Assembly (NCBI GenBank): GCA_013697635.1
Contig: JACCWM010000211.1
Span: 62,001 to 126,000, forward strand
Direction: 5' to 3'
Origin: Lujinxingiaceae bacterium
Lineage (GTDB): Bacteria; Myxococcota_A; Bradymonadia; Bradymonadales; Bradymonadaceae
DNA: 64,000 nt
Shown piece by piece: positions 15,757 to 41,034 of the stretch. How positions within the stretch are numbered: position 1 is the stretch's first letter; each line of letters starts with the position of its first letter. The position numbers were made by a program, and so were the translations under genes. Below the pieces are notes generated by a model. That model did not search any database. It worked only from the letters and a program-made list of their open reading frames with translations, and had not been told where the DNA came from.

Positions 15757-15851
15757 GGCGGCGGTCCGAAGTCCTTGCATCGGCTCGCCGCCGCGGGCAT
15801 CATCTCCTTAGCTTTTTGGATGTTGGCCCCTCTTCTAGCCTAGTCTCCCAG

Positions 15852-17897: not shown

Positions 17898-17904
17898 GTT
17901 CTTG

Positions 17905-19977: not shown

Positions 19978-19978
19978 T

Positions 19979-23484: not shown

Positions 23485-23497
23485 TCGGAGCAACACC

Positions 23498-24214
23498 ATG
23501 AGCCCCATCTGCCAACGGATCACTGTGGTTGTTCTGCTCGCGCTCGTTTTCGCTGGGCTCAGCGCCTGCGACAAGGGCGAGGGCGAGCTTAGCGGCAGCG
23601 TCTCCGAGTTCTACGACATCTCATATCACCACATGCGCGCGCGCCTCTACAGCTCCGAGCTGGCGATCGAGTACGTGCGCGAAAGCGGCGATGTACCAGT
23701 ACGCATCTCGCTTCGTCGCGAGGCCTTCGCGCTGGCGCCGGGCACCTACGATCTCAAACTAAACGGCGACATCAGCGGCCAATCCCGCCACCATGAGCTT
23801 CCTCGCCTCGAATCGGGCCGCATCGAGCTCAAGGAGTTTCGCGCTGAGGTGGGCTTTATCGTGCGCGGCGAGTTCTCGGCCACCCTTCGCGCCGGCGACA
23901 CCAAGGCCAGCATCCGTGGAAGCTTCGAGGCGCCACTCGAGATCATCGACGACGGCACTCGCCCCGATGTGGGCATCGTCGAGCCACCCGACATTGTCGT
24001 AATCATTGAGGATATCCTGGTTCCGGTCGAAGATATTGTGGTCCCGGTCGAGGATATTGTGGTTCCTGTCGTGGATATCCTGGTGCCGGTTGAGGATATT
24101 GTGGTTCCCGTCGAGGATATCCTGGTACCCGTCGAAGACATAACGCCGATTGAAGACACGACGCCCGTCGAGGACACGACAGCCGATGTGCAATTCGACG
24201 CCGAGGCTGGCTAG
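23498..24214 (+). CDS. small lipoprotein ending in tandem EDI[LV]VPV repeats
   Basis: This is a lipoprotein of 238 residues with GGAG eight bases before ATG; the signal peptide ends GLSACDK. Residues ~25-165 form an unrecognised, beta-rich globular domain. The C-terminal ~60 residues are a strict tandem array of seven-residue units EDI(L/V)VPV (six copies), then shorter EDI/T-T-P-I/V units. Such an alternating acidic/proline-valine rod could span a layer of the envelope. It is the last gene of the five-lipoprotein run, 13 bp after the propeller gene, and its 3' end overlaps the convergent gene by 4 bp. Function unknown. Confidence 0.8.
   Translation: MSPICQRITVVVLLALVFAGLSACDKGEGELSGSVSEFYDISYHHMRARLYSSELAIEYVRESGDVPVRISLRREAFALAPGTYDLKLNGDISGQSRHHELPRLESGRIELKEFRAEVGFIVRGEFSATLRAGDTKASIRGSFEAPLEIIDDGTRPDVGIVEPPDIVVIIEDILVPVEDIVVPVEDIVVPVVDILVPVEDIVVPVEDILVPVEDITPIEDTTPVEDTTADVQFDAEAG
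24008..24181 (+). repeat. in-frame tandem repeat: six 21-bp units, then 18-bp units
   Basis: Six units of 21 bp (24008-24133) encode EDI(L/V)VPV. Two 18-bp units and a partial one (24134-24181) encode EDITPI, EDTTPV and EDTT. Units differ mostly at third codon positions (GAG/GAA, CCG/CCC/CCT, GTC/GTT/GTG), so the protein pattern is better kept than the DNA. Confidence 0.9.
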
Positions 24215-24850: not shown

Positions 24851-24936
24851 CCGGCTCAGCCTACAGAGGTTGGACAGCGTGCAATGGCGTAGCCTTTGCG
24901 ATGTCGAGATGGTTAACGTGATGTGGAGAACTCGTG

Positions 24937-25584
24937 ATGATTTGGCCTAAGGCCGTCCGGCGTCTCTTGTGGACCCTGGCGCTCATCTTGTTCGCGATGC
25001 CGGCGCTTGCCCAGGCAAGCGATGGTGGCGATGATCTTCGGCCGTATTCGTCGCTGGTCGTTCAGAACCGAAAACATACACCCACTCATGAGCTCAACCT
25101 CAAGCTGGGCGTGTTGCCGCTCGACGCCTTTACCAAAGGCGTGACGCTGGGCGGATCGTACACCTTTCATTTTACCGATTTGATCGCGTGGGAGCTCATC
25201 GGCTTTCACTACTCGTTTCACGTCGACACCAACCTCAAAGACGAGCTCGAGGTCTATATCTTGAGGCCGACGCCTTTTGAGGTGCTCGACTACTACGTGA
25301 CGAGCAACGTGGTGTTCAAGCCCCTGTATTGGAAGGGTTCGTGGCTCAATTCGAGCCTGACCTATGGGGAGTTGTTCTTCTCGCTCGGTGGCGCCTATGC
25401 GTGGTTTACGCGCAGCGCACGTCCGGGTGTGAGCGCGGGTGGTGGCGCGCGTCTTTACGTCTCGCGGTTGTTCTCGTTTCAGGTCGATCTGCGCTATCTG
25501 GCGTTCTTTGACGACAAATTTTTGGATACTTTCGAAGTAAAAGATGAACTCTCGATCGGCTTTGGTACGTCCATTGGTTTTTGA
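24937..25584 (+). CDS. outer-membrane beta-barrel protein (myxobacterial OMP type)
   Basis: This protein has 215 residues. A signal peptide (MIWPKAVRRLLWTLALILFAMPALAQA) is followed by a short linker and an eight-strand-like barrel. Alternating hydrophobic/polar strands (LNLKLGVLPLDAFTKGVTLGGSY, GEL(F)FSLGGAYAWF, GGARLYVSRLFSFQVDLRYL) lead to a C-terminal Phe. The layout matches the small outer-membrane barrels that accompany Glt and Nfs machinery in Myxococcus; that link is inferred from neighbours. GGAG lies eight bases before ATG 24937; an in-frame GTG at 24934 is less likely. The following gene starts 41 bp before its stop. Confidence 0.82.
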   Translation: MIWPKAVRRLLWTLALILFAMPALAQASDGGDDLRPYSSLVVQNRKHTPTHELNLKLGVLPLDAFTKGVTLGGSYTFHFTDLIAWELIGFHYSFHVDTNLKDELEVYILRPTPFEVLDYYVTSNVVFKPLYWKGSWLNSSLTYGELFFSLGGAYAWFTRSARPGVSAGGGARLYVSRLFSFQVDLRYLAFFDDKFLDTFEVKDELSIGFGTSIGF

Positions 25585-27013
25585 ACCTCGCCGAGTACTT
25601 GGGGCCGCCTTGCTACTGGTGTTGTGGGCTGTTGGAGCCTGCGCGCCATCGGCGCTCTCTGGCGAGCGCGACGAGGTCTTCGCGTTGGCCGTCGAGGCCT
25701 CGCTCAACGAAGATGCCGTGCTGGCCTCGCGCGCAGCTCACCACTATCTGCGCGGTGCCACGGTCGACGATCCGCGCTACGACCGTGCGATGCGCCTTTT
25801 GGCCGAGAATGCCGAGCGCCTGGGCCTGACTTATCCGGCCTCGCTCTGGTATCTGGACATCGCGCGATCTCGACGCGACGTGGAGCTTGTGCGCGACGCG
25901 GTCTCGGGCCTCGAGCGCATTATGTCCACCCATCCCTACGACGAACATACGATCGTGCACGGCTACCTGGGATCGGCCGACATCAGCGGGCTATCGGCCG
26001 CTCAGCAGGCGTTTGTCGACTACCAGCAGGGTCTCGACAGCATGCGCCGCGGGGTCGATGACTGGGCCAAGAAGAAATTCGAAGAGATTCCTGTCGCAAG
26101 CCCGTACCATGCGCGCGCGCAGTACGTGATGGCGATTCGTCTGGTCGCGCGCTACAAGCTCGACGAGGCGCGCGAGGCGCTCGAGATTCTCGAAGATCTC
26201 GACGATCTGCCGGCGGATCTGGAGATCGACATCCATCGCACGATGGCGCGGATCATGTTCGAGGAGCGCCGCTTCAACGACGCGCTCAAGGAGTACGAGT
26301 CGATTCGAAAGAGCGCGCCCGACGATCCCGAGCTGCTGCTCGAGATGGCCTGGACCGAGTATTATCGCGGAGAGTATCGCCGCTCGCTGGGTCTTTTGCT
26401 CGCGCTCGATGCGCCGGGCTATCGCGGCTTGATCGCGCCGGAGCGCTACCTGCTCGAGGCGCTCAATCTCCAACAGCTTTGCCAGTTCGAGCCTGCGCGC
26501 TTGGCCGCGGTTCGTCTGGGCGCACGCTACGGCGCCGCGCTCAACGATTTGCGAAGCGGCGTGCCGCTCAAGGACAGCCAGGCATTGCGCTCGGCGGCTG
26601 GGCTTCGAGAGGGTGGTAAGGACGTGGCGCAGTTTCGAAAGCGCCTTCGCATCGAGCGCGAGCTCGTCGCCACACTGGCTCGGCGCATGGGCCCAGAGCT
26701 CACGGCGAGCATGGTGGCGATCTATGATGTCGGACTGGCCGAGGCCGGCCGGCGCGAGGATGAGCTCTTGACCGTCGAGATGGAGCGCGTCGCCAGCGAA
26801 TTGCTTGGAGCCGAGGAGGGCGTACGCCTGATCTTGCACGAACTCAGCGTCGCCTTGTTGCGCGGTCGCGGGCGTACCACGGGCCCCAAAACCTTGGCCT
26901 CGTTTCAAGTTCCGGCCAGCGGTGAGATGGTTTACTACCAGTTCGAAGGCGAGTTTTGGACCGATGAGCTCGACGACCTGATCGTGCCGATGGAGGACCG
27001 ATGCATCGATTGA
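25544..27013 (+). CDS. TPR-repeat lipoprotein of the Glt/Nfs-like cluster
   Basis: This is a 489-residue lipoprotein with a lipobox in LWAVGAC. Residues ~45-320 form helical TPR-like repeats (RAAHHYLRGATVDDPRYDRAMRLLAENAERLG, DYQQGLDSMRRG, EILEDLDDLPADLEIDIHRTMARIMFEERRFNDALKEYESIRK). The C-terminal 150 residues are helical without obvious repeats and end in an acidic segment. It overlaps the barrel gene at its start and the large TPR gene by 13 bp at its end, so the three are translated together. It probably acts as a periplasmic or inner-leaflet outer-membrane scaffold; specific orthology to a named Glt protein is not claimed. Confidence 0.8.
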   Translation: MNSRSALVRPLVFEPRRVLGAALLLVLWAVGACAPSALSGERDEVFALAVEASLNEDAVLASRAAHHYLRGATVDDPRYDRAMRLLAENAERLGLTYPASLWYLDIARSRRDVELVRDAVSGLERIMSTHPYDEHTIVHGYLGSADISGLSAAQQAFVDYQQGLDSMRRGVDDWAKKKFEEIPVASPYHARAQYVMAIRLVARYKLDEAREALEILEDLDDLPADLEIDIHRTMARIMFEERRFNDALKEYESIRKSAPDDPELLLEMAWTEYYRGEYRRSLGLLLALDAPGYRGLIAPERYLLEALNLQQLCQFEPARLAAVRLGARYGAALNDLRSGVPLKDSQALRSAAGLREGGKDVAQFRKRLRIERELVATLARRMGPELTASMVAIYDVGLAEAGRREDELLTVEMERVASELLGAEEGVRLILHELSVALLRGRGRTTGPKTLASFQVPASGEMVYYQFEGEFWTDELDDLIVPMEDRCID

Positions 27014-30000
27014 GTCTGATGCGAGGCTTCTTCACAGCGGCGCTGCTCGCCCTGGTGATGCTCGGAAGCGCTTCGTGTGCGACGAGCAGCTTCGAGGTGC
27101 GCGATACACCCGAGATCGAGATGCTGCGCCTTCGCATCACGAAGGTGCGAAACGCCATCTTCGAGACGCGCGAGACGATCTCGATGTCGCGCGGCGCGCC
27201 CTATTTGCCGGAGCTGTACTTGCGCCTGGCCGAGCTGTTGAGCGAGGAGGCGCGCTACCACTATCAGCTGGCCTTTGAGCGCGAACGCCGCTCGACGCGC
27301 GATCTATACGTGCCCGAGGTGCGCCTCTTGAAAGAGGAGTCCATCGAGATCTACACGATGGTCTTGCGCCGTTTTCCGACCAACTCGCTTGCGCCGCGCA
27401 TGCTCTTCAATCTCAGCCACGAGCATCGTGAGCTGGGTAACTTCGACCCGATGCGCGTGGCCTTGCAGCGCCTTGTTGAGGAGCATCCGACCAGCCCGCT
27501 GCGCTTTCAAGCCCTGCTGGTGCTCGGTGACAACGAGTTCGACAAAAACGAGCTCAAAGAGGCCGAGCTCTATTACAAGCAGATCACGCGTGGCGATCTC
27601 AACGCGAGCTCGGGTCTGGCGCACTACAAGTTGGGTTGGGTCTGGGTCAACTTTGGCGAGTGTAAGAAGGCGCTCACGGATTTCGAGTTGGCGATCTCCA
27701 AGACACAGGCCTGGCTCGATCACACGGAGGAGATCAAGCGCACGCGCCAGGGCGTGGCACAGCTTGGCGAGCAGACGTTGGGCGCCGATCAGGACATGGA
27801 CGTGCGACGAAGCGCGCTCGTGGATTTGGCCTATTGCTACTCCCAGGAGCGCTCACACGAGCGCGCGGTCGCCTTTTTTCGCGAGCGCGCCTATGACCGT
27901 GCAACCTATGTCATTGCGCTGGGACGCCTGGCCAACCGCTACCGCATGATGGAGCAATACAAGGGCCTGCTCGCCATCTCGCGCGAGTTGCTCGCCTTTG
28001 GACCGGCCGAAGAGGACCGCCTCGACGACGCGCGCACGCTCTACACGGCGATGACTCAGCTTCGCGAATTCGACCAGATTGGCACCGACATCGAGCTGAT
28101 CGCCTCGGCCTTTACGCGCTATCATACGCAGATTGCCGTGGCCAACGACGTGCGTGGTCGGCTGCGTGACGAGTTCGAAGTCTATGTGCGCGACGTGATG
28201 ACGCGCGCGCAGACCCGTCTTCAAGAGACCCCAGCGGGCGACAAGCAAGTCGCGCTCGCGCTGCAACTAGCCCACGCTTATGGCGTCTACGCCGACACGT
28301 TTCCCCAGGCTGACCAACTCGCTCCGATGTTGCTCAACATGGCCGAAGTGCTCGTGATCGCCGGCGAAGAGCTCGATGCCGGCCTGCGCGCTTTGCAGGC
28401 AGCGGACTTGCTCGAAGAGGGCGATGAACGCAAAAACGCGCTCTACGACGCCGTGGTCAATTTCCAGGCGAGCCTGAGCAAAGAGATCGGCCGTCGCCAG
28501 TATGACCGTGTGGCGGCGCGCGCTGCGCTTCGTCGTGCCGGCCATGCGCTGGTGTCCTTTGATCTAGACAAGGATCGCCGTCGGCGTGTTCGATTTGCCA
28601 TGGCCCAGTCCTACTATGACGAGGGGCGCTACATCGAAGCCATCGACAAGCTCTCGGCCGTGGCCTACGAGTATCCGGCAAGCGAGGAGAGCGAGGCGGC
28701 CATTCGTATGGTGCTCGACAGCTACAATATGCGCAGCGACTACGACGGCTTGATCTATGCGAGCCGGCGTTTTCTCGACGGAAGAAGTCCGGCCAATCCC
28801 AATCTCAAGGGCGAGATTCAGCAGATCTTGGCCGCCGCTGAACAGCGAAAGCTCGACACCTTGTCGCTGCAAGCCGCAGGCGAAGATGGCGGGGAGCTCT
28901 CGCCGCTCGAGGATTTTGCCAAGATTCACAAAGGTACGCCGCTCGGTGAGCGTGCGCTGCTCAACGCCTTTGTGGCCGCGCGTGCCACGGGCGACACCAG
29001 CCGCATGTACGCGCTTGCCGACGAGATTGCCGGGACCTATCCCAAGAGCGAGCAGCTCTCGGGCATCTATTCGACGCTCGCCCAGACCGCGGTTTCGCGC
29101 TTCGAGTACGACCGCGCGATCGGCTTTTTGCAGCGCGCGGCCACGTACAACCCGGAGCGTCGTGCCCAACTCTTGACCGTGGCAGGCTCGTTGCTCGAGG
29201 AACTCGGTGACGTGGCGCAGGCCGAGAAGCTCTACCGCGAGGCGATCGGTGCCGGACGTGTCGGCGGTGCACGCGCTAACGCGATTAGCCAGCTCTCCTT
29301 TTTGCTCGAGCGACGCTCCACGCCGGCTCAACTCATCCAGCAGCTGACGCCGCATCTGGGCGATGGCAACCCCGAGTTGACGGTGCGTCTGGGCCTTGCT
29401 CAGTTGGCCACCGGTCAGACCGATTCGGGCGGCGATCTGCTCCAGCGCGTGCTGCGAGACGGCGAGGGCGCGAGTGGCGAGGCTCAAGCCCGCGCGCACT
29501 ATGGTCTGGCCGAGGTCATGCTCGCCACGCTGAACACCTTTCCCAGTCTCGAGGACATCGACCTGCTCCAAGACTACATCATGCTCGTCGAGGTCACACA
29601 GCAGAGCTATCTCAACGCCGCACGCCAGGGCAGCGCCCACTATACGACGGTCTCCTTGAGCCGTCTGGCATTCGCCCTTCGCCAGGGCGCCAACCAGTTG
29701 CGCAGCGTCAAGCTTGGCGGACTCGACGGCGGACAACGCCAGCAGGTCGAGAACGCGCTCAAGCAGCGTGTCGAGTCGCTCGAGGCCACCGCCAGCGAGG
29801 CGCTTGACGCGTGTGCCGCGAGGCTTTGGACCAACTTGACCTACGATCCGGTGGTGCGAAAGTGCATCGACGGCATGGCCTGGGAGTTTACCCTGGCGCA
29901 GTTCATCGCGATTCAGCCGCGCCAGAAGGTCTCCGATCCTGCAGGGCTCGACGAGCTGCGCGAGCGCCTCTCGCGCAATGCCGACGATGTTGATGGCCTT

Positions 30001-30297
30001 CGCGATCTCGGCCTGAAGTTTCTCGAAGCCGGCGATGCCCACGTCGCACGTCTGGTGTTTGCGCGTGCCGTTCAGGCAGGCGGCGGTCCCGTCGAGCAGA
30101 ACCTGCTCGGCGAGGCGAGCTTTCGCGTCGGTGATACGACCGGCGCGTTTGAAGCGTTTGCGCGTGCGGCCGAGGGTGGCCTCGAGGCTGGCCGACAAAA
30201 CCTCGCCAAGCTGCTTCGAAACGAGGGACTCGCCAAGTACGCCGACGAGGTCTTCAAGCGCTATCCCGAAGGCCGCGCCGGAGGTCGACAGATATGA
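27001..30297 (+). CDS. large TPR protein resembling GltD(AgmU)/NfsD
   Basis: This protein has 1098 residues. A signal peptide contains a possible lipobox (LGSASC). The rest is almost wholly helical TPR repeats, for instance AELYYKQITRGDLNASSGLAHYKLGWVWVNFGECKKALTDFE and EKLYREAIGAGRV near residue 750. Size, repeat content and position before a GltE-like lipoprotein match AgmU/GltD and NfsD, periplasmic scaffolds of the Myxococcus gliding and spore-coat machines. The match is by architecture and context, not a computed alignment. The start overlaps the previous stop by 13 bp with GGAGG just before it, and the stop shares ATGA with the next start. Confidence 0.8.
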   Translation: MHRLSLMRGFFTAALLALVMLGSASCATSSFEVRDTPEIEMLRLRITKVRNAIFETRETISMSRGAPYLPELYLRLAELLSEEARYHYQLAFERERRSTRDLYVPEVRLLKEESIEIYTMVLRRFPTNSLAPRMLFNLSHEHRELGNFDPMRVALQRLVEEHPTSPLRFQALLVLGDNEFDKNELKEAELYYKQITRGDLNASSGLAHYKLGWVWVNFGECKKALTDFELAISKTQAWLDHTEEIKRTRQGVAQLGEQTLGADQDMDVRRSALVDLAYCYSQERSHERAVAFFRERAYDRATYVIALGRLANRYRMMEQYKGLLAISRELLAFGPAEEDRLDDARTLYTAMTQLREFDQIGTDIELIASAFTRYHTQIAVANDVRGRLRDEFEVYVRDVMTRAQTRLQETPAGDKQVALALQLAHAYGVYADTFPQADQLAPMLLNMAEVLVIAGEELDAGLRALQAADLLEEGDERKNALYDAVVNFQASLSKEIGRRQYDRVAARAALRRAGHALVSFDLDKDRRRRVRFAMAQSYYDEGRYIEAIDKLSAVAYEYPASEESEAAIRMVLDSYNMRSDYDGLIYASRRFLDGRSPANPNLKGEIQQILAAAEQRKLDTLSLQAAGEDGGELSPLEDFAKIHKGTPLGERALLNAFVAARATGDTSRMYALADEIAGTYPKSEQLSGIYSTLAQTAVSRFEYDRAIGFLQRAATYNPERRAQLLTVAGSLLEELGDVAQAEKLYREAIGAGRVGGARANAISQLSFLLERRSTPAQLIQQLTPHLGDGNPELTVRLGLAQLATGQTDSGGDLLQRVLRDGEGASGEAQARAHYGLAEVMLATLNTFPSLEDIDLLQDYIMLVEVTQQSYLNAARQGSAHYTTVSLSRLAFALRQGANQLRSVKLGGLDGGQRQQVENALKQRVESLEATASEALDACAARLWTNLTYDPVVRKCIDGMAWEFTLAQFIAIQPRQKVSDPAGLDELRERLSRNADDVDGLRDLGLKFLEAGDAHVARLVFARAVQAGGGPVEQNLLGEASFRVGDTTGAFEAFARAAEGGLEAGRQNLAKLLRNEGLAKYADEVFKRYPEGRAGGRQI

Positions 30298-30917
30298 GGC
30301 GAATTGCGATGAATTCAAAGCGTAGCTTCAGGGGCGCATGTGGCCTGGCCCTGATTGCGCTGATCTTTGCCGGGACGCTCGGCTGCGCAGGCGTCAAACC
30401 GATTGATTTGCACGACGCTTCGGTGCCGATCGAAGGCCGGCGCCTGGTCGCCGATGCCCAGGACGGCATCGCGATCGCCCGCGCCCAGCAGGACAACGCC
30501 CGCGTCAGCTTGCGCGCCTCCCAGAAGTGGCGCAATGACATCGCCTCACTCAAAGGCGTGCCCGGCGGCGCCACCGACGTCCTCGCCAAGCTCAACGAAC
30601 TCGCCGCCGTGCGCCTTCGCCTGAGCGAGATTCAACTCGAGCGCGCCAACGCCGAGCTTGAGTTGGCCGTCGCCAAATACGACCTCGTCACCGCCCGCGT
30701 CGCCGTGCGAAACGACCTGGCCGTCTACGACCTGGAAAAACTCAATCTCAAAGCCGAAGCCATCTTGAACCGCGCACGCGAGATCGACCGCCAGACGGTC
30801 GGACAACTCGAGCACCTCGACAAGGTCACGCGCGCCTGGTGGACGTCGTACACGGGCTTCGTGCAAGGCGGCGGCGATGCACGCACCTTCTTTGCGGCCT
30901 TTGAACGCACGCCCTGA
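30294..30917 (+). CDS. coiled-coil lipoprotein resembling GltE/NfsE
   Basis: This protein has 207 residues. A signal peptide ends FAGTLGCAG (lipobox), and the rest is predicted to be two long helices (RLVADAQDGIAIARAQQDN, LRLSEIQLERANAELELAVAKYD) forming a coiled coil. In Myxococcus the small lipoprotein GltE partners the large TPR protein GltD; the same order here supports that reading, but it is inference. The start ATGA overlaps the stop of the TPR gene; an alternative Met lies at 30309. It is the last plus-strand gene before the converging motor operon. Confidence 0.75.
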   Translation: MRRIAMNSKRSFRGACGLALIALIFAGTLGCAGVKPIDLHDASVPIEGRRLVADAQDGIAIARAQQDNARVSLRASQKWRNDIASLKGVPGGATDVLAKLNELAAVRLRLSEIQLERANAELELAVAKYDLVTARVAVRNDLAVYDLEKLNLKAEAILNRAREIDRQTVGQLEHLDKVTRAWWTSYTGFVQGGGDARTFFAAFERTP

Positions 30918-30931
30918 AAACGGGCTTCAGT

Positions 30932-30988
30932 CGATCAGTATTCACATAGTCGGGTCCCCTGAGGGGTCGGACTTCGGCGGCCCGCTGC
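30932..30988 (-). repeat. dispersed palindromic element, copy B
   Basis: On the minus strand this reads GCAGCGGGCCGCCGAAGTC, then the invariant core CCCCTCAGGGGACCCGAC, then TATGTGAATACTGATCG. It is the closest match to copy A over about 57 bp. It lies between the converging Glt-like operon and motor operon, next to a strong terminator. Confidence 0.8.
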
Positions 30989-31012
30989 CCGAAAGAGCGA
31001 TCGGTCGCTCAT

Positions 31013-31042
31013 AAAAAAACACGACCGAAGTCGTGTTTTTTT
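31013..31042. terminator. bidirectional rho-independent terminator
   Basis: Seven A residues, CACGAC, loop CGAA, GTCGTG and seven T residues form a perfect 13-bp palindromic stem, giving a U tract in both directions. It separates the converging operons ending at 30917 and 31072. A second small hairpin (GAGCGA-TCGG-TCGCTC, 30995-31010) sits beside it. Confidence 0.9.
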
Positions 31043-31071
31043 AGGAAGTCATTGTCGCGTCGATCGGGGCT

Positions 31072-31635
31072 TTAGTTGCAGAGATCCGCGCGCTTGTCGC
31101 CGGCTGCGACGACGATCGGTGAGGCGCAGGGAAGGGCGGCCTTGGTGGCGCCTTCTTCGACGACGCGCGCGCAGATCGGTACGATCAGGGTCGGGTAGTT
31201 GGTGGCGTTGGATTGGATGACGAGGGCGACCTGGTCGGAGTCGCTGCCGCCGTTGGGATCGCGTCGCTCGTAGGTGACGCGCATGGCGGCCTCAGCGCCG
31301 AGGGTGGCGGTTGCCGGCACGGGGCCTTCGATGATGAACTGCTCGGTGTCCGATCCATTCTTGGTGGGGTCACCGACCAGGCAGGTCTTGGTGATCTTGA
31401 CGTCGTTCGAGCATGTCGATTGCAGGAGTAAAACCCACTCGAAGGGCGTGCGGGTGTTCGATGTCAGGTTGGCGGGATTGTTGCCCAGCGGATAGAACTC
31501 GCCAAGGGAGACGGGGCTCAAATGCGGGAGGATCTCTGGGCCCTCGCAGAGGCTCGATTCGGATTCGCTGCTGCAGCCGATCGTTGCGGCCAGGACCAGG
31601 GCGAGGGGGACTGCGAACTTGAGGTGGTTGAACAT
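31072..31635 (-). CDS. small lipoprotein at the end of the motor operon
   Basis: This is a lipoprotein of 187 residues. The signal peptide ends AATIGCSSES (lipobox). The ~165-residue body is beta-rich with three cysteine pairs and resembles an immunoglobulin-like 'choice of anchor' domain (TPFEWVLLLQSTCSNDVKI, MRVTYERRDPNGGSDSDQVALVIQSNA); no named family is certain. It starts 24 bp after the kinase/TonB-like gene, so it is probably the distal member of the motor operon, and its product may sit on the outer membrane near the complex. Confidence 0.75.
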   Translation of the reverse strand: MFNHLKFAVPLALVLAATIGCSSESESSLCEGPEILPHLSPVSLGEFYPLGNNPANLTSNTRTPFEWVLLLQSTCSNDVKITKTCLVGDPTKNGSDTEQFIIEGPVPATATLGAEAAMRVTYERRDPNGGSDSDQVALVIQSNATNYPTLIVPICARVVEEGATKAALPCASPIVVAAGDKRADLCN

Positions 31636-31659
31636 CGGAAAACTCCTGAATACGCGGTT

Positions 31660-34600
31660 CTAATTGCTCTGGAAAACGAAGGGAAAGCGAATCGTGACGG
31701 TATCACCGCCCTGGGGGCTGGGAAACTTCATGCTGCGGATGACGCCGAGCACGCAGTTGGAGACGCCAGGGTCACCCATGGTGCTGGCCTGCTCGCGGGC
31801 GTTGCTGACGCTGCCGTCTTTGTTGACGATCCACTCGAAGGTGATCTGGCCGCCGAGCGAGGGATTTTTGAGCAGGGCGCTCTCATAGCAGCCCTGAATG
31901 CGTCCCTGGTAGCGGTTGATGACCTTCATGACGTCGCCTGCCGAGAGGCTGCCCTCGACGCGTGAGAGCGCCTGTACTGAGCGTACGCGGCCACGAACGG
32001 TGCCGCTCGAGGCACGTTTGTCGAGCTTGCCGGTGTCTTTGGCGACACGGCCGCCAGTGAGATCGCCGAGCTTGCCGCCGCCGCCCGAGGCGATGTTGAC
32101 CTTGTCGCCTTCGATGCCCGAGAGCGTGCCGCCGACCCGAAAGGCCGAGGACTTCGAGGTGGCAGCGATCGCGTCGATGTTACTGACAACGTCCTTGACC
32201 GTTTCACCTTCGCCGGCCACGGGCGAGGCCAATACGTTGAGCAGGTTCTCGGCCTTGTTCTTTGAAGGCGCCTTGCCCCCGCGGTCGCGCATGCGCTTAT
32301 CGAGTTGTTCGCGCAAGGCCTTGGGAATCATGACCTGCTGCTCGGTGGGATCGACCGGCTTGGGTCGCTCGATCTTCTTGGGCTCGGGACGCTCTTTGGG
32401 CGGCGGTGGCTCGACCTTGGGCGGTGGCTCGACTTTGGCGAGCTGACCCTCGGCGAAGACCTCGGCCCTGGGGTCGTCTTCGATGACCAGGCGTATGCCG
32501 AGCAATTGACTGGTGACGGCGATCGTGCCCAAAATACCCGCCACATGCAGAAGTGACGCAGCCACAAAGGCAATCGCGTAGACGCCTACGCTGCGCGACC
32601 AGTTGCGACGCTGCTCGGGAGCCGGCGGGTTGGGTGGATAGAAGAAACGGATCTGGAAGCTTATCAGCGTGTCATGGATGACCATGACCTCGCCGATGGC
32701 GAGGTTGATGTCGTTGGTACCCGCGAGCGGCTCGCGCGCGTCTTCGGTGCCCAGTCGGCGCACCCAGCCGCTGACCGGCTCGGTGAGCTTGACCGTGACG
32801 CGCTTTCCGGACATGTGCACGGAGAACTTGCCCTTGACCGGGCGATAGCGTCGGCGCAGTCCACGCAGGACGTGCGCGTCGATCACACGGCCGTTGAGCG
32901 TGCGCACGATTTCGACGACAGGATCGGGAGCGTGCTGATCGGCGTTGGTTTGCCTGCGTGCGATCGCGTTGTCGATGATCTCCTCGAGCGAGAAGGGCGC
33001 GACAAAGGCTGGGTCTTCGTCCTCGTCCTCCTCGTCGCAAAAGGCGCCGGCAAAGCCTGTCAGCTGCTGGTCAGGTGCGCTGTTGCCAAGAGGCGGCTCG
33101 CTGCGTGCGACTTCGGCGCTCGCTGCGGCGGACCACTGGACCTGGTCGTCGATCATCGAAGGGTCGAGAGAGATGCTTGGCAGATCGGGCTCGGGCTCGC
33201 GGCTCGGAAGCGGCGTAGAGGAGCGCAACGGGTCGCTTGGCGGCGGGCTCGAGCCGGGAAAGAGGACGGCGTCGGCAGCGGGTCTCTTGGGTGCGCCAGC
33301 AGGCGTTGCCGTGGGGCGCGGGTCGACTTTTTCAAACGTGGTGTCGAGCGTGTCGACGCCAGCCTCGCCAACGAAGCCTGCCGGAGCCGACGAGGTGTCG
33401 GGCTCGGGCTTGAGCGAGAAGTCGAGCTCGCCGAGCGCCTCGAGCTCGGCCGATTCAAGCTGGTCGATGGTCGAGTCGATCGTTGACTCGCCCACGCTCG
33501 GCTGCGACTTGGCCTTGGTCTTGGCCAAGAGGGCCTGGGCCTTTCGCTTGCGCTCCAGGGCGGCCGAAGCCATGGCGACCATCTGGCGCCCGGAGCGCAT
33601 CTCGACGGTGGCGTCGTTGATATCCTCCTCGTCGTCGGACTGAACCTCGGAGTCGTAAGCCTCCATGGCGTCGGGAATGGCCGAGAGCAGGTCGTCGAGC
33701 GGAAAGAGATCGGGCAGCCCGCCGAGCGAGGGCTCGCGCCGACTGCCCAGCGTGATGTCGTCCGCGCTCGCTGCATCGCCAGGCGATGTCAGCTCGTTGG
33801 TGGTCTCGGGAATTTCAATATCGCCGGTGGCATCGCCCCAATCTTCGAGGCCATCCAGCTCGAGGGCATCTTGAAACGGCGAGGTGACCGCGGTGCTCTC
33901 GTCCGGTGAAGCCACACCCCACTGCAAGGTCGGCATGCTCTTGGGAGCATTGAGCTTGATGTCGGAGCGTGAGCGATCACGCTCGCGCTCCAGATCGGCG
34001 GAGTGGGCTACCGCCGTATTCTCCTCGCGCGGGCTGGACGTGGCATCGATCGGGCGAAACAGGCTGCTGAGCAGCTTGATCACGTCCTCGGTGCGGCCCT
34101 GGGGCTCGATGTTGGCAAGCGATTGCCAGCGCGGTTCACGGTCGGAGAAGATTTTTTGCAGTGTTCGCCCAAGGCTCGGTTCCTGGCCGCTGGCATTGAG
34201 CGAGTTGAGCAGGCGCTCCATGGCCGTGGCGAGCTGATGGCAGTCGGCGAAGCGGTCGTGCGGATCCTTGGAGAGGGTCTTGAGCACGAGCGAGTCGAGA
34301 AAGGGTGGTACTGCCTCGTTGTATTTGGAGGGCGGATCGACCGGATCATCGCAGATCGCGCGCATCAAATCGAAGGAATTGGTCTGCTCGAAGAGGCGTC
34401 GCCCCGTCAACAGCTCCCAGATGACGATGCCCATGGCGAAGATGTCGCTGCGGCTGTCTCCCCAGCTTCCCATGCACTGCTCGGGCGCCAGGTAGCCGAA
34501 CTGCCAGGCGGCGCGTGCGTTGCTCTGGTGGCGGCGCTGATTGAGCGCGGCGGCGATGCCCATGTCGACGACTTTGATCTCGCCGGTGTAGGTGACCACG

Positions 34601-35055
34601 ACATTGTGGGGGCGGATATCGCCATGGACGACGCTTGTCGGATAACCTCGGTCGTCGACCAGGCGATGTGCGCCGTCGAGCGCGCGGGCAACTTCGATGC
34701 AGACCTTGAGCGCAAAGGCGACCGGCACGCCGGCCGTGGTGTTGAGCTGGCGCACGCGGTTGATGATGTCGGCCAGGTTCTCGCCGTAGATGAACTCACG
34801 GATGACGTAGAAGGCGTCGCCTTCGCGCTCTAGGCCGAAGACGCGGGCAAGCTTTTGGTCTTGAATACGCGCGACGCGGCGCACCTGCTCGGTGACCACG
34901 CGCAAAATCTCCGCGTTGGCCGGAATCTGCTTGACCACGACCAGACGTGGGCGACGCTCTCCTTGACCGGAGTCCATCGCCACCCAGGTGTTGGTCAGCT
35001 CATCCCCGCTGAGCTGGGTCAGGATGTGGTATCGCCTCTGTATAATGTGGGTCAT
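31660..35055 (-). CDS. Ser/Thr-kinase-like domain fused to AgmX/PglI-type TonB-like energy transducer
   Basis: This is a membrane protein of 1131 residues. Residues ~9-285 have a protein-kinase fold: VVVKQI (Lys near 40), catalytic loop HGDIRPHN (~142-149), VVDMG in the DFG position, and YLAPEQC. The Gly-rich loop is absent, HRD is HGD, and the loop Lys is Arg, so catalysis may be weak or lost. A long acidic, low-complexity region follows (~300-690), then a beta-rich block (~710-815), one transmembrane helix (~825-850), and a Pro/Glu/Lys-rich periplasmic stretch (KVEPPPKVEPPPPKE). The C-terminal ~95 residues (GDVMKVINRYQGRIQGCYESAL...MKFPSPQGGDTVTIRFPF) are an AgmX/PglI-type, TonB-like domain. 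It likely couples the ExbB/ExbD motor to outer-membrane partners, as GltG/GltJ do. Confidence 0.85.
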   Translation of the reverse strand: MTHIIQRRYHILTQLSGDELTNTWVAMDSGQGERRPRLVVVKQIPANAEILRVVTEQVRRVARIQDQKLARVFGLEREGDAFYVIREFIYGENLADIINRVRQLNTTAGVPVAFALKVCIEVARALDGAHRLVDDRGYPTSVVHGDIRPHNVVVTYTGEIKVVDMGIAAALNQRRHQSNARAAWQFGYLAPEQCMGSWGDSRSDIFAMGIVIWELLTGRRLFEQTNSFDLMRAICDDPVDPPSKYNEAVPPFLDSLVLKTLSKDPHDRFADCHQLATAMERLLNSLNASGQEPSLGRTLQKIFSDREPRWQSLANIEPQGRTEDVIKLLSSLFRPIDATSSPREENTAVAHSADLERERDRSRSDIKLNAPKSMPTLQWGVASPDESTAVTSPFQDALELDGLEDWGDATGDIEIPETTNELTSPGDAASADDITLGSRREPSLGGLPDLFPLDDLLSAIPDAMEAYDSEVQSDDEEDINDATVEMRSGRQMVAMASAALERKRKAQALLAKTKAKSQPSVGESTIDSTIDQLESAELEALGELDFSLKPEPDTSSAPAGFVGEAGVDTLDTTFEKVDPRPTATPAGAPKRPAADAVLFPGSSPPPSDPLRSSTPLPSREPEPDLPSISLDPSMIDDQVQWSAAASAEVARSEPPLGNSAPDQQLTGFAGAFCDEEDEDEDPAFVAPFSLEEIIDNAIARRQTNADQHAPDPVVEIVRTLNGRVIDAHVLRGLRRRYRPVKGKFSVHMSGKRVTVKLTEPVSGWVRRLGTEDAREPLAGTNDINLAIGEVMVIHDTLISFQIRFFYPPNPPAPEQRRNWSRSVGVYAIAFVAASLLHVAGILGTIAVTSQLLGIRLVIEDDPRAEVFAEGQLAKVEPPPKVEPPPPKERPEPKKIERPKPVDPTEQQVMIPKALREQLDKRMRDRGGKAPSKNKAENLLNVLASPVAGEGETVKDVVSNIDAIAATSKSSAFRVGGTLSGIEGDKVNIASGGGGKLGDLTGGRVAKDTGKLDKRASSGTVRGRVRSVQALSRVEGSLSAGDVMKVINRYQGRIQGCYESALLKNPSLGGQITFEWIVNKDGSVSNAREQASTMGDPGVSNCVLGVIRSMKFPSPQGGDTVTIRFPFVFQSN

Positions 35056-35093
35056 CGTGTCGTCAGTTTGGGTTCACACAACGTGCGTGGCGC

Positions 35094-35579
35094 TTAGTCG
35101 TCGGCTCCATCCTTGCCCTTGGCTTGCTGAAATTGCGTCGTCCAACCCGGCCCGAGCGACGAGTAAACAGTGTTCTCCAGGTAGCTGGTGCGTCGATCGG
35201 TCATCGAGGGCAGCGGCCTGGGGGTGCGTTGAAACAAGAAGACGGCGCCGGCGCCGGCCGTCTCACCGCGGATCAGGCGCGCGTCAAACTCCATGCGCCC
35301 TCCGCGAAGCAGCGTCGGCGGGGGCGCCTGCTGGTTTTGAGAGGACTGCGGCGCGTCGTCGTCGTCATCATCATCCTCGTCCTGCTGTTTGGGCGGCGGG
35401 GTGGGCGCGGTGCGTGCTTTGGTCTTTTTCTTGGTGCGCTGGGCGAGCATCGGCTGGGTGCTCGACGGTGCGCTCTGGGTGCCCGAGTCGGCACCAGGCA
35501 ATACGTCGGCCGTGCTTGTGGTGGCGATCAACAGGCCGGCCAGCACCGTCAGGACTAAAAATGTCGTCTCTCGTCTCAT
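35094..35579 (-). CDS. small secreted acidic protein in the motor operon
   Basis: This protein has 161 residues. The signal peptide is MRRETTFLVLTVLAGLLIATTSTAD. A Lys-rich stretch (TKKKTKAR), a run of seven or more Asp residues and a Gln/Pro-rich linker follow, then a ~65-residue C-terminal part with TLLRGGRMEFDARLIRGETAGAGAVFLFQR and SYLENTVY. The C-terminal pattern recurs in my memory of small proteins beside gliding-type motor genes, but I cannot name the family. ATG at 35579 has AGGA seven bases upstream; GTG and TTG codons just before it extend the frame. It lies between the second ExbD gene and the kinase/TonB-like gene. Confidence 0.75.
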   Translation of the reverse strand: MRRETTFLVLTVLAGLLIATTSTADVLPGADSGTQSAPSSTQPMLAQRTKKKTKARTAPTPPPKQQDEDDDDDDDAPQSSQNQQAPPPTLLRGGRMEFDARLIRGETAGAGAVFLFQRTPRPLPSMTDRRTSYLENTVYSSLGPGWTTQFQQAKGKDGADD

Positions 35580-35589
35580 CACCAAATCC

Positions 35590-36060
35590 TCATTTCTTCA
35601 TGATTGCGAGGCGATAGCGGGCAAAGCCTGCCATCGACGAGGAGCGCATCACCAGATAAAGCGTCTGGTAGTCGAGATCCTTGTCGGCCTGAATCGTCAC
35701 CACGGTCTGTTCTTCCTCGTCGACGGTGAAGTCCATCTGTTCAGCATAGACCTTCAGCGCTTCGACAAGTTCCGGAATTTCGCCGGCTGTGTAAAAGTCT
35801 GCGGGAAATTTGCCGTCTTCGAGGCGCATCAAGACCTTTTGCTCGACGATCAGCGCCTGAGGATTGATCACGACGTTGACCGAAGGTTTGAACACCGAGC
35901 GCGCCGAGGACTCTGGCAACCTGAGGTCAGGATCGAGCTTGAAGGCCTGGTCCTCGGCTTCAAAGCTGACGATCAGGAAGATCAAGATGATCGTGAACAT
36001 GTCGAGAAGCGAGGTGAGCATCAGCCCTTTGGGCTTGGAGCGCTTCATGAATCGACTCAT
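35590..36060 (-). CDS. ExbD/TolR-family motor protein with the conserved Asp (AglQ/AglS-like)
   Basis: This protein has 156 residues. A short cytoplasmic N-terminus is followed by a single helix, LTSLLDMFTIILIFLIVSF, in which Asp20 is in the position of the proton-carrying Asp of ExbD/TolR. A periplasmic ExbD domain of ~115 residues follows. With ExbB it should form a proton-driven stator. It begins 3 bp after the other ExbD-type gene ends, so the two are tightly co-translated, as in the Myxococcus aglRQS operon. Confidence 0.9.
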   Translation of the reverse strand: MSRFMKRSKPKGLMLTSLLDMFTIILIFLIVSFEAEDQAFKLDPDLRLPESSARSVFKPSVNVVINPQALIVEQKVLMRLEDGKFPADFYTAGEIPELVEALKVYAEQMDFTVDEEEQTVVTIQADKDLDYQTLYLVMRSSSMAGFARYRLAIMKK

Positions 36061-36063
36061 CGC

Positions 36064-36642
36064 TCACTCCTCCTCATCGTCGTAGTCATCATCATCGAGC
36101 ACCGGTGAATCGGGACCTGGAGGAATGAACTTCGAGAAGACCGTGACCGGGAAGAGTTCTTCGAACTTTGCGTCACCCTTGTCGTCAAAACCCAGCGGCC
36201 GCTCGCGCACGCCGTCGACGACCTCGACGAGCACCTGGTAGGGCAATTCGTTGTGCGGCAAGATCGTCATCGTCGTGCTCTCTGGATAGAGCTGCTTGAC
36301 GCGGGTCAGGCGGGTGCGAAGGCCCTCGATATCATACTGGTCATCTTTTTTGGGCAACTCGATCGAGAGCGCCGAGAGCGCCTCCTCGCCCAGGCTGGTG
36401 CTGGCAAAGCTGAGGGCGATTGCGTCGGGCTTGATCACCAGGTTGGCCGAGACGGTCGTTGGCGTCGCAGGCACGTCCGAGGCATTGGGATCGTGGGTTG
36501 CGGTCGCCGTCGGAATGACGCCGATCTGGTAGAATGCCGCTCCCAGCAGCAAAAATGGAATCAGAACCATGAACAGGTTCATGACCGGTACGACGTTGAG
36601 GTCGTATACCTCGCTGGTCTTGCGGCGCCTCTTGTTGAACAC
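36064..36642 (-). CDS. ExbD/TolR-family protein with Asn in place of the motor Asp
   Basis: This protein has 192 residues. The N-terminal motif DLNVVPVMNLFMVLIPFLLL lines up with the ExbD signature (E/D)-(I/L)-N-V-x-P-L-V-D-V-x-x-V-L-L. The essential Asp is replaced by Asn22. The periplasmic part is longer than that of its partner, has a Thr/Pro-rich linker (residues ~45-65), and ends in an acidic tail (DDDDYDDEEE). It may serve as a structural, non-proton-carrying half of a mixed TolR dimer. It lies directly between exbB and the canonical exbD. Confidence 0.88.
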   Translation of the reverse strand: MFNKRRRKTSEVYDLNVVPVMNLFMVLIPFLLLGAAFYQIGVIPTATATHDPNASDVPATPTTVSANLVIKPDAIALSFASTSLGEEALSALSIELPKKDDQYDIEGLRTRLTRVKQLYPESTTMTILPHNELPYQVLVEVVDGVRERPLGFDDKGDAKFEELFPVTVFSKFIPPGPDSPVLDDDDYDDEEE

Positions 36643-36688
36643 GTGGTCTCTCTTCCGTTTGCTACGACGCCCAAAGGCAGCAGATCAC

Positions 36689-37480
36689 TTAGACGGCCTG
36701 ACGGCTTCGCCCATCCTGGCTTGCCGGCGCGGTGCGTGCCGGCGAGTCATTGTGGGCGACACCGCTGATCGAGACGAGCAGCGCCGTGGCGCCGCCTTCG
36801 GCCTCGACCATGATCTGCTCGGAGCGCTTGGAGAGAAAGTGGTGAAAGACCAGCAGCGGAACGGCCACGCCGATACCAAAAGCCGTGGTGTACATGGCCT
36901 GGGAGATACCGGCGGCCAGGGCTTCCTGGCGCTCGACGGCCGATGCGGCCGCGACGCTGGAGAAGGCCGAGATCAGACCGAAGATCGTGCCGAGCAGACC
37001 GAGCAGCGTCGAGGTGTTGGCCAAGACGGCCATCAGGTCGACACCGCGTTGCAGGCTGGGGATGGCCGAGAGCAGCTCCTTTTCCATGGCGCGCTCGATG
37101 TCTTTCTCGCGACGATTGGCGCGCAGCAGACCGGCCTTGGTGACGGCGATCAGCGGATGCTTGCTCGATACCTCGCAGGCGTCGAGCGCGTCACGAAAGC
37201 GGCGGTGCTCGACAAAATCGCCGATTTTGGACACGAAGGAGCGCACATTGAGCCGGCGCAATACGTAGAGCTCGACCATGCGAATCAAAAACAGGGCGAC
37301 GCCAACGATCGAGACGCACAAAATGACATACATCATGAAGCCGCCGGCATCGAGATACTGGCGCATTACAAAGCCGGCGCTGGCTGGCGCCTCGCCGCCG
37401 GCGGTAGCCAAAATCCCGAGACCCAGGTTTTGCAGCACGCTGACGCTGCTTGTAAGGCTATCAAGACCGATCGCATTCAT
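36689..37480 (-). CDS. MotA/TolQ/ExbB-family proton channel protein (AglR-like)
   Basis: This protein has 263 residues. An N-terminal periplasmic/hydrophobic segment precedes the first transmembrane helix (GGFMMYVILCVSIVGVALFLIRMVEL). A ~90-residue cytoplasmic loop and two closely spaced helices follow: VLANTSTLLGLLGTIFGLISAF, the TolQ/ExbB signature, and GISQAMYTTAFGIGVAVPLLVFHHFL. In E. coli ExbB the last motif reads GIAEAL; Gln replaces that Glu here. The product should form the pentameric channel around two ExbD subunits. It is the first gene of the minus-strand motor operon, preceded by a plausible promoter. Confidence 0.92.
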   Translation of the reverse strand: MNAIGLDSLTSSVSVLQNLGLGILATAGGEAPASAGFVMRQYLDAGGFMMYVILCVSIVGVALFLIRMVELYVLRRLNVRSFVSKIGDFVEHRRFRDALDACEVSSKHPLIAVTKAGLLRANRREKDIERAMEKELLSAIPSLQRGVDLMAVLANTSTLLGLLGTIFGLISAFSSVAAASAVERQEALAAGISQAMYTTAFGIGVAVPLLVFHHFLSKRSEQIMVEAEGGATALLVSISGVAHNDSPARTAPASQDGRSRQAV

Positions 37481-37585: not shown

Positions 37586-39583
37586 TCATTCGAGTCCGGG
37601 ACGCGGCATGGGAATGCGAGGCCGAACGAATTCGTCGTCCGAGACCCAGATGATCGCGTCATCAGGTGTGCGTCGGTCGGGCGGATCGTAGACCACCGGG
37701 ATCGAGGCCATGCGAAACGGTCCGGGGATGTCCAGGCGGCCCTCCGGGGCCTGGGCAAAGAAGAGCATGATGTTGTTGGTGCCGGCCGGATTGATGCCGT
37801 CGTCGAGCTCGCGCGTGGGCATCAGCCGAATGTTTCGAATCGTGTAGCTGAGGCAGTGGCGGCGCCGATAAACGATGCGCAGCGGCTCGACGAGATCGGC
37901 GGGCGGCAGATCGATGAGCGTGATCTCGACAAAGATGCGCCGGCCATCCTCGCCTTGAATCGGCGCATAGGAGGCGCTTTGCAGCTCGACGACGCCGCCG
38001 CGCTCAACGGAGACCGGCTCGCCGGCACGTGTATCGTTGGCGTCTTGCCAGCTCAAGGTCTGAGCGGCGGCATTAAAGCGCAGCACGCCGACTCCGGGCG
38101 TGGTGCCCGGGCTCATGTCGGTGACGCGCACACCGGTCATCTGGCGTAAATTGGCCGCGAAGAGCTCGGTGACAAAGCCCTCGTCCTCGATCTCGTAGCG
38201 GTAGGAGTGCGAGAGGTGGGCGTTGGTATCGACGCTTCGCGGGTCGGTGTGCTGGATAATCTCATCGCCGTTTGAGACGCCGTCGCTGTCGGAGTCGAGG
38301 TGAGCGTCGGGGTTGAGATAATCCGTGCCGTAGAGCACCTCCAAGATGTCGGGAATCCCGTCACCGTCGGAGTCGACCAGCGAGGGCTCGGTGCCAAGCG
38401 CGTAGTTGTCGCAATCGGTCAGCCCATCGGCGGTGACATCGCGTCCGGGAGCGAGCAACGAGCAGGCCGCCAGCGCATCGGCGGCGAACGGGTTGAGGCC
38501 GGTCAAAATCTCGACAAAGTCAGTGATGCCATCGCCATCGGTGTCCGGGTTGGTCGGCGAGAGGCCTAGTTTCTCCTCTTCAATGTCGCTGAGGCCGTCG
38601 CCATCGGAGTCGACCACCGGGCCATTGGGGGTGGGTTTGGCGTTCATGTTCGCGGCGATCAGCAACTTGGCATGCATGACGATGCGAAGGCCCAGCAAGT
38701 TGAGCGCGCTGTATCCAAAGCCGCCGATCGTATTGAAGCGCTGAAACTCGCCGCGCCCGGCAAAGGCCATGGCCTCCATGGCCTGCTGGACCTCGTCGTT
38801 GGGCTGGCGACGTCCATCGGGCAGGGGATCGAGATTGGGCTCGGCGGCGAGTTGGATGGCATGAAACTTCAGGCCACCGCCACCCATCTGGGAGATGACG
38901 TCACGAAGCCTGGCGACCTCTTCGCCGGCCTTTTGGGCCTCGCACGCGGGCGAGGGACCGGCGTTTTGCTCGATGCATTGCAAGTCGTTGGGCGCGCAGC
39001 AGTCTTCGCCGTCCGCCATGGGCTGCGCCGGGCCGGCATTGACCATGATGACGACGTACTGGGTAATTACGCGCAGGCCGGCGGGCATCGTCGCCAGATC
39101 GCCCTCGATGAGCGAGCGCGTCAGCCCGATGGCCTGGCGGTAGTCGCGGCATTGATCGTCGGCCGCGCAACCCGTGGGATTGCCGATTTGTGCGAGCGCG
39201 GCGTGCAGCTCGCCGGGGTTGCGCGTGAAGTTGCCCTCGACTGGGGCATGCTTTCGCGGCTGGCCGGAGTAGCCGATGACGGCGAGTTGATTCTCACGAC
39301 CGGCGGTGGCCGTTTGCACGAAGTCGCGCAGGCTGTTGATGCGCTCCGAGCCGGGATCGAAACCCGCAAAGAGCGGGCCTGCGGCCTGGTCGATCAACAA
39401 GATCACACGAATGGGAAACTGGGCTTCGACGGGATCTTCGCTGCAAACGCGTCCGGCCAGCGTCACACGGTCGGCCTGTTTGCGCGCACCGTCCTGGCTG
39501 TAGAGCGTTGTATCGGTGCAACTCGAGCTGGCCAAGACTGCAGTAAGTGCAAGGATCACGGCGTTTCGCAATCGGGCGCTCAC
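37586..39583 (-). CDS. VWA-like lipoprotein with T3 repeats, paralogue 3, metal site lost
   Basis: This lipoprotein has 665 residues (lipobox LASSSC). It parallels the products at 15852 and 17905: the short Cys-Thr-(D/E) start, the strand FPIRVILLID, the central D-x-DGDG-x-x-D calcium repeats (DSDGDGLSDIEEEKLGLSPTN and others) and the C-terminal domain CLSYTIRNIRLMPTRE. Where the others have D-x-S-x-S, this one has DQAAG, so the VWA metal site is probably inactive. It begins with GTG; GGAG lies five bases upstream, and the GTGA overlaps the stop of the preceding lipoprotein gene, indicating coupling. It lies upstream of, and on the same strand as, the motor operon, but a promoter-like gap separates them. 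Confidence 0.82.
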   Translation of the reverse strand: MSARLRNAVILALTAVLASSSCTDTTLYSQDGARKQADRVTLAGRVCSEDPVEAQFPIRVILLIDQAAGPLFAGFDPGSERINSLRDFVQTATAGRENQLAVIGYSGQPRKHAPVEGNFTRNPGELHAALAQIGNPTGCAADDQCRDYRQAIGLTRSLIEGDLATMPAGLRVITQYVVIMVNAGPAQPMADGEDCCAPNDLQCIEQNAGPSPACEAQKAGEEVARLRDVISQMGGGGLKFHAIQLAAEPNLDPLPDGRRQPNDEVQQAMEAMAFAGRGEFQRFNTIGGFGYSALNLLGLRIVMHAKLLIAANMNAKPTPNGPVVDSDGDGLSDIEEEKLGLSPTNPDTDGDGITDFVEILTGLNPFAADALAACSLLAPGRDVTADGLTDCDNYALGTEPSLVDSDGDGIPDILEVLYGTDYLNPDAHLDSDSDGVSNGDEIIQHTDPRSVDTNAHLSHSYRYEIEDEGFVTELFAANLRQMTGVRVTDMSPGTTPGVGVLRFNAAAQTLSWQDANDTRAGEPVSVERGGVVELQSASYAPIQGEDGRRIFVEITLIDLPPADLVEPLRIVYRRRHCLSYTIRNIRLMPTRELDDGINPAGTNNIMLFFAQAPEGRLDIPGPFRMASIPVVYDPPDRRTPDDAIIWVSDDEFVRPRIPMPRPGLE

Positions 39584-40227: not shown

Positions 40228-40478
40228 CAATTCCATCCATTGTGTTGCATGATTGGCCGGCGCCCACAATATCAGCTCAGATCGACGCCGGCAATCCTGG
40301 GAACGCCCCGCATGGCCCGCTCCGTCGTGATCAGCAATCGAGCTCGAAGGCACTATTTTGGCGTGAAGGCTGTGTTTTGGGCCACAGGGGAACAATATTG
40401 CATTGTCAAAAGGTAAGATATGTTCAATGTTGTGGGCTCGAAGGCCACAGTCGCAGTGAACCAGCACCCAGTCCAATC

Positions 40479-40997: not shown

Positions 40998-41034
40998 GGT
41001 TTCACCCGCAGTAGCTAATCAAGGTAGAGCGACC

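Follow-up and report, generated by a model that had tools for sequence, protein, structure and literature searches.

The window analyzed here, a stretch of 64,000 nucleotides from the assembly GCA_013697635.1 of a Lujinxingiaceae bacterium (contig JACCWM010000211.1, positions 62,001–126,000), contains a conserved and complete trans-envelope machine of the Glt/Nfs type together with its own motor. According to profile comparisons, the locus encodes proteins of the GltC, GltD, GltG and GltF types, a GltA/B barrel and an AglR-Q-S motor, and it probably represents a divergent force transducer of the Glt/Nfs type, an ancient relative of the gliding and spore-coat machines of Myxococcus, for which both an AglRQS-type motor and a VWA-domain surface lipoprotein are encoded on site. 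An earlier note had described two convergent operons at this place, and all ten of their open reading frames (ORFs) were found in the ORF list of the window at the claimed positions and strands, with domain matches in agreement (47.5 and 39.9 bits for the two ExbD proteins, 96.4 bits against a cut-off of 40 for the AgmX/PglI C-terminal domain, and TPRs; Pfam/NCBIfam). It had overlooked a VWA/TSP3 lipoprotein gene (37586–39583) adjoining the ExbB gene, and its term "minimal version" fits poorly to an operon of 11 genes with a VWA lipoprotein. The presence of motor and cargo at one locus held true, albeit the arrangement itself was not new: Luciano et al. (2011, PMC3169522) had already reported a one-locus core machine with motor, and another one is present in the same genome. 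The motor and transducer in one locus being known, the new parts are the lineage, the putative VWA cargo, the swapped heads of the GltG-type protein and the Asn/Asp motor.

The host genome (6.2 Mb, with the window on contig C32) harbored three further Glt-type loci, C38, C15 and C26 (L066, L067 and L068). Protein families were built from the loci of the class and compared by hhalign with these three canonical clusters, whose gene names rest on NCBIfam GltC matches, domain content and gene order. The C38 cluster was read as GltC-D-E-F-G, the C15 cluster as VWA-like, GltB, A, C, D, E, F, J, and the C26 cluster as GltC-D-E-F-AglR-Q-S-GltG, a canonical core complex whose motor genes lie at the same locus. 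The 1098-residue TPR protein of the plus-strand operon (27001–30297, lipobox SASC), proposed earlier to be GltD-like, matched the three GltD families with E-values of 2e-47, 4e-34 and 2e-28 over 839–873 columns (scores 247–406), while the GltE/GltC control families scored far weaker (46–89 over 104–273 columns). The smaller TPR lipoprotein encoded upstream of it (25544–27013, plus strand, 489 residues, lipobox VGAC, 43 bits to NF033756) matched the GltC families of C38 and C15 with E-values of 2e-21 and 9e-23 over 362–423 columns and had the common C-terminal motif FEGEFWTDE...C. The first gene (24934–25584, plus strand) encodes a predicted GltA/GltB-type outer-membrane beta-barrel (59.7 bits to TIGR04565, OMP_myx_plus, with a cut-off of 60; E-values of 2e-17 to the GltB and 2e-13 to the GltA family). 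The proteins of the window remained below the cut-offs of the NCBIfam equivalog models for GltC, GltG and GltJ, so that their assignment to families is based on the profile-profile comparisons and on the tree.

In the minus-strand operon, the kinase/TonB-like protein (31660–35055) matched the GltG families by its C-terminal half with E-values of 3e-30 and 1.5e-33 over 352–404 columns. It had a transmembrane helix and a TonB-like tail, while the N-terminal FHA domain was absent and a kinase-like cytoplasmic head (Pkinase, 81.6 bits) occupied its place. The proposal of an AgmX-type (GltJ) protein was dropped for this gene in favor of the GltG type, as its match to GltJ covered only the tail of approximately 93 residues; neither a GltI-sized ORF nor GltJ was found at the locus, and a GltJ-type protein was located instead at C15. 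The small acidic, presumably periplasmic protein encoded next to it (35094–35585, minus strand), with the C-terminal motif MEFDxRLIRGE...R.SYL, was assigned to the GltF type: against a merged GltF family, including GltF/NfsF of Corallococcus, it reached a probability of 94.5%, an E-value of 8e-8 and a score of 38.3, as high as which none of the 300 column shuffles came (maximum 18.7), while with close orthologues only the score of 21.7 was next to the shuffled maximum of 21.0. Its gene adjoins the gltG-type gene, as gltF does at C38.

The motor genes complete this operon, and the AglRQS-type motor anticipated from the sequence was borne out. The ExbB/TolQ protein (36689–37480, minus strand; PF01618, 91.6 bits) was of the AglR type and in the ExbB tree fell into the Agl clade (100/98 support) with the AglR of C26 and two Agl-type motors of Corallococcus, apart from ten other ExbB/TolQ proteins. 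The two ExbD proteins proved to be distinct subunits, each fitting one type: ExbD1 (36064–36642, minus strand) matched AglQ with 99.5% against 20.7% for AglS, and ExbD2 (35590–36060, minus strand) AglS with 98.7% against 5.3% for AglQ. A conserved transmembrane aspartate has been described for both AglQ and AglS (PMC9389320). The window motor, and likewise the core-type motor of C26, deviated from this: the AglS-type subunit kept the Asp (SLLDMF), as it did in every sequence examined, while the AglQ-type subunit had Asn at this position (PVMNLF). The same Asn was found in all readable orthologues of the class, in L234, L235 and L240, and in the core-type motors of the C26 kind; Asp in both subunits was found in the operons L164–L177 and in both Corallococcus motors. 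The individual core-type motors with the AglQ-type Asn were those of L068, L090, L093, L099, L102 and L105.

The head of the GltG-type protein varied among relatives: it was FHA in L168, L237 and L240 (by Pfam) and visibly so in L165, L166, L175 and L178, it consisted of TPR repeats in L234 and L235, and it was kinase-like in the class lineage to which the window belongs. For the kinase/TonB-like protein of the earlier note, the Pkinase match and a GltG-type membrane and periplasmic part were supported, but almost all orthologues have a degenerate kinase. The head of the window protein keeps the Lys, HGD and DMG motifs without a Gly-rich loop and was the only one of nine kinase-like heads to retain together the Lys, the HRD-type Asp, the Asn and the DFG-type Asp, with the catalytic Asp lost in seven of the nine. 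Judged from these residues, the kinase-like head more likely serves as a scaffold or for docking of a cytoplasmic partner than for catalysis. Neither the head swap nor the AglQ-type Asn was mentioned in the literature searched, which mostly excluded subscription papers, and both the exchange of FHA for TPR or a mostly degenerate kinase and the Asn/Asp motor look new.

The last gene of the plus operon (30294–30917) encodes a coiled-coil outer-membrane lipoprotein specific to the lineage, which had been taken for a GltE/NfsE protein. It gave no significant hhalign match to GltE and no convincing match to any family compared. Genes for both the coiled-coil lipoprotein and GltE occurred together in L164, L165, L172, L173, L175, L178, L179, L237, L238, L240 and in Corallococcus L263, and, since they stand side by side in these distant relatives, the identity with GltE/NfsE was ruled out. 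GltE itself has, by the gene content, been lost in the lineage of the window.

The gene next to the ExbB (37586–39583, minus strand) encodes a 665-residue lipoprotein (lipobox SSSC) with TSP3 repeats (51.8 bits). The best PDB matches of its low-confidence model were consistently VWA domains (E-value of approximately 5e-7), one of its paralogues had Pfam VWA matches, and in relatives it was conserved either adjoining the ExbB or heading the operon. CglB, the adhesin of the Glt system, is a VWA surface lipoprotein (PMC13104615, PMC12288465), and the modeled fold and the position make the VWA lipoprotein of the window the best candidate for the surface cargo or adhesin. A conserved lipoprotein-like ORF (39580–40476, minus strand) adjoins its gene and had counterparts with 31–38% identity in L050, L052 and L054. 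Upstream of the plus operon, a block of surface lipoprotein genes (14317–24214, plus strand) encodes a TSP3-rich, two VWA/TSP3, a PPC, a BNR-like and a repeat-tailed protein, with the VWA and TSP3 domains matched in Pfam. Homologues of parts of this block adjoined the same operon in L052, L054, L055, L056, L059 and L061, and TSP3 and VWA homologues were also present in L234 and L235; the block is probably an extended part of the locus. A further lipoprotein (31072–31635, minus strand) had an ASH/HYDIN/PapD-like immunoglobulin (Ig) fold in its AlphaFold2 model (pLDDT, the predicted local distance difference test, of 82.8), with best PDB matches to HYDIN/central-pair and PapD-like domains at E-values of 5e-5 and weaker; it was conserved in relatives less widely than the VWA and coiled-coil lipoproteins.

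Conservation was examined in a class sample of 57 genomes, 16 of which had full-length or clear orthologues of the 1098-residue protein, with the order barrel-GltC-GltD-coiled-coil lipoprotein preserved wherever the flanks were readable. The linkage of the two operons, which the earlier note had left to a synteny survey, was found to be conserved: orthologues of the window ExbB (56–71% identity, with the next paralogue at about 40%) were present in 12 genomes, all of them among the 16 with the plus operon, which is far above chance (Fisher p = 2.6e-9, without correction for common descent). The convergent layout on one contig was seen in G001, G009, G014, G015 and G040 besides the window; in G002 the two halves were 230 kb apart and in G048 and G053 the motor was on a separate contig. 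In all cases in which a motor was detected with sufficient flanking sequence, the VWA/TSP3 lipoprotein gene adjoined the ExbB, and the conserved unit is larger than the ten genes by including it. In one family (L062, L063 and L064 of G056, G054 and G055, respectively), the barrel-GltC-GltD-coiled-coil operon was observed with no motor orthologue found; this family may rely on the C26 motor in the way that Nfs relies on AglRQS.

Distant relatives were represented by 36 loci in a scan of named genome contigs, nearly all from assemblies of uncultured Myxococcales or Deltaproteobacteria, and GltE followed the coiled-coil lipoprotein in seven of them. The genes for VWA, GltF, GltG, barrel, GltC, GltD, coiled-coil lipoprotein and AglRQS all lay on one strand in ten loci outside the class layout. 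In eight loci (L165–L171 and L177) they were consecutive in the order VWA, GltF, GltG, barrel, GltC, GltD, coiled-coil lipoprotein, AglR, AglQ, AglS, and in L234 and L235 the order was VWA-AglR-AglQ-AglS-GltF-GltG-barrel-GltC-GltD-coiled-coil lipoprotein. With an 11-gene one-strand operon form occurring in other Myxococcota, the two convergent operons of the window would most simply be a rearranged form of a single operon. The phylum scan scored two candidates per genome, which makes its carrier count a lower bound; a second one, which covered 50 genomes and as many as 15 candidates in each, yielded 4 carriers. Tandem pairs of gltA/gltB-like barrel genes were seen in L238, L237 and L240. Genes with FHA-type matches lay between the coiled-coil lipoprotein/GltE and the Ig-fold lipoprotein genes in L153 (6841–8265), L158 (6084–7427) and L237 (6268–7605); those of L153 and L158 visibly combined FHA with a sigma-54-type activator, possibly a dedicated regulator.

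In the GltD tree, calculated with L235 left out, the lineage of the window, including L263 of Corallococcus sicarius, was split by a branch with 100% support in the Shimodaira-Hasegawa-like approximate likelihood ratio test (SH-aLRT) from GltD and NfsD of Corallococcus and from the C38, C15 and C26 types, so that the window protein was orthologous neither to the gliding GltD nor to NfsD. Lacking GltE and the FHA head and being set apart by the tree, the locus is not a member of Glt proper, of Nfs proper or of the seven-gene core as defined. C. sicarius had four GltD proteins: GltD, NfsD, a C26-type protein and a member of the window lineage, the last of these in L263 with the order GltC-GltD-coiled-coil lipoprotein-GltE. 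M. xanthus has two more gltD homologues without known function, MXAN_1922 (cluster G4) and MXAN_1327 (cluster G5) (PMC3169522), and, given the lineage member in the related genus Corallococcus, one of these two probably belongs to the lineage of the window. The Corallococcus locus differs from that of the window: L263 retains GltE and had neither a local motor nor a VWA gene in sight on a contig that starts inside GltC. MXAN_1327, although a gltD homologue of cluster G5 according to Luciano et al. (2011), has also been listed both with a Tad-like pilus and as upregulated in predation (PMC10196010).

By analogy with the Agl-Glt model, protons would pass through the ExbB and the Asp-bearing ExbD subunit, and the motor would work the membrane helix of the GltG-type protein; GltG is known to bind AglR, and Agl drives Glt and Nfs cargo alike (PMC3169522, PMC3858216). 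The TonB-like tail of the GltG-type protein would engage, through the peptidoglycan, the GltF-type peptide (GltF resembles a TonB box; PMC9389320) and the GltC/GltD scaffold, which would couple to the barrel and the outer-membrane lipoproteins, and in this way the VWA lipoprotein would become exposed at the surface, or be moved or pulled there, in the manner of CglB during gliding. By the same analogy, the machine likely serves to attach the cell in a controlled manner to a surface or to another cell, or to move a surface protein, rather than for general gliding. It might even be suggested, although tentatively, that such loci form a third functional class of Agl-powered machines in addition to those of gliding and of spore-coat wrapping: a dedicated adhesin mover with a swapped input head (FHA, TPR or pseudokinase), a constant periplasmic output and only one of the two ExbD-type subunits proton-competent. 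A VWA domain genetically tied to an ExbB/TolQ-type motor is also known from inner membrane-tethered vWA force transducers (PMC12204202), but there the VWA protein itself is the membrane transducer, while here it is a predicted outer-membrane lipoprotein accompanied by a separate GltG-type transducer.

Several points weigh against such a function, which is assigned by analogy. GltE is essential for gliding in M. xanthus. It was absent from the locus, and the GltE profile of the lineage detected no dedicated copy elsewhere in the genome, its best matches there being the GltE proteins of the C26 and C38 loci together with TPR proteins of a general kind. The model of the VWA lipoprotein was of low confidence (pLDDT 58), its profile had no detectable similarity to the VWA-like lipoprotein next to the canonical gltB-A-C cluster of the same genome, and its likeness to CglB is one of predicted VWA fold and lipoprotein nature. 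Finally, four class genomes contained the plus operon without such a motor being detected.

It appears unlikely that the machine instead has a surface polysaccharide as its cargo, to be moved or wrapped in the manner of Agl-Nfs and the spore coat, with the VWA lipoprotein serving only as an anchor. Nfs is the closest functional precedent of a non-gliding Glt paralogue (PMC3858216), it has clustered genes and shares the GltC-, D-, F- and G-type parts with the window, and the gliding-specific GltI and GltJ are not at the locus. However, the products examined around the locus included no glycosyltransferase, no Wzx/Wzy and nothing for export, the additional linked genes code for surface lipoproteins, and the lineage is not on the Nfs side of the GltD tree. 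Nfs, moreover, borrows AglRQS and has a GltE-type protein (as seen at Corallococcus L262), in contrast to the window system with its own motor, additional VWA and coiled-coil lipoproteins and no GltE.

That the locus provides a second motor for gliding, whether reserved for particular conditions or contributing to gliding in general, is equally improbable. The window has homologues of GltA/B, GltC, GltD, GltF, GltG and AglR, Q and S of the M. xanthus Agl-Glt system (GltA-K, AglRQS, CglB), i.e., a full AglRQS-GltCDFG set, and a VWA lipoprotein that could correspond to CglB in role; besides, the system was present in the genome presumed to be Bradymonas sediminis, which glides weakly, while Persicimonas and Lujinxingia are described as gliders (PMC7188933). 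In the genomes taken as the latter two, on the contrary, this GltD was missing and other Glt-type loci were present, and the system is therefore not needed for gliding, if the identifications are right. The extra clusters G3, G4, G5 and M2 of M. xanthus are all dispensable for gliding (Luciano et al., 2011, PMC3169522). The locus further differs from Agl-Glt by the lack of GltE, GltI and GltJ, by motor and cargo in one locus, by the kinase-like instead of FHA head, by Asn in place of the AglQ-type Asp and by a GltD across a fully supported branch.

It is very doubtful that the locus is simply a further core complex of the published one-locus kind (group B genes of Luciano et al., 2011: GltC, D, E, G and AglR, Q, S): the gene logic is alike, six of the seven genes are shared and the core complex also has its motor in the locus (PMC3169522), but the true core-complex locus of this genome is at C26, across the 100% branch from the window GltD lineage, and the window locus is without GltE, has the FHA replaced and the VWA, coiled-coil, GltF and barrel genes added. 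Least credible is a system for housekeeping or uptake of the Tol-Pal or Ton kind that resembles Glt by common parts only, since, although ExbB, ExbD and a TonB-like tail are general to such systems and the genome has seven ExbB and sixteen AgmX-tail matches, the ExbB is inside the Agl clade, GltD, GltC, GltF and the membrane-proximal part of GltG were matched over their length, no TolB, Pal or TonB-dependent receptor was among the products examined, and the distribution is patchy.

Next to the locus, a PrkA-type serine kinase gene (40945–43371, plus strand) and, farther along, a gene whose large product combines double zinc ribbon, AAA and TPR domains (48476–51394, minus strand) were noted. 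Scans for sigma-70 promoters and terminators did not yield more than shuffled sequence.

A function is known for only two Glt-type machines, those of gliding and of the spore coat, while M. xanthus has more copies. In the lineage described here, the motor, the transducer and the probable surface cargo are in one operon, so that the gene order itself shows what the cargo is, and all parts can be transferred or deleted in a single step. The lineage also supplies natural variants for testing how such motors work. It has been stated as unsettled whether AglQ and AglS form homo- or heterodimers with AglR (PMC9389320); from the combination of an AglQ-type Asn with an AglS-type Asp, one would expect either homodimers of the AglS-type subunit or a heterodimer that has only one site for protonation, which is directly testable. 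The swapped GltG heads, in turn, suggest that regulation is plugged into these machines apart from the force output.

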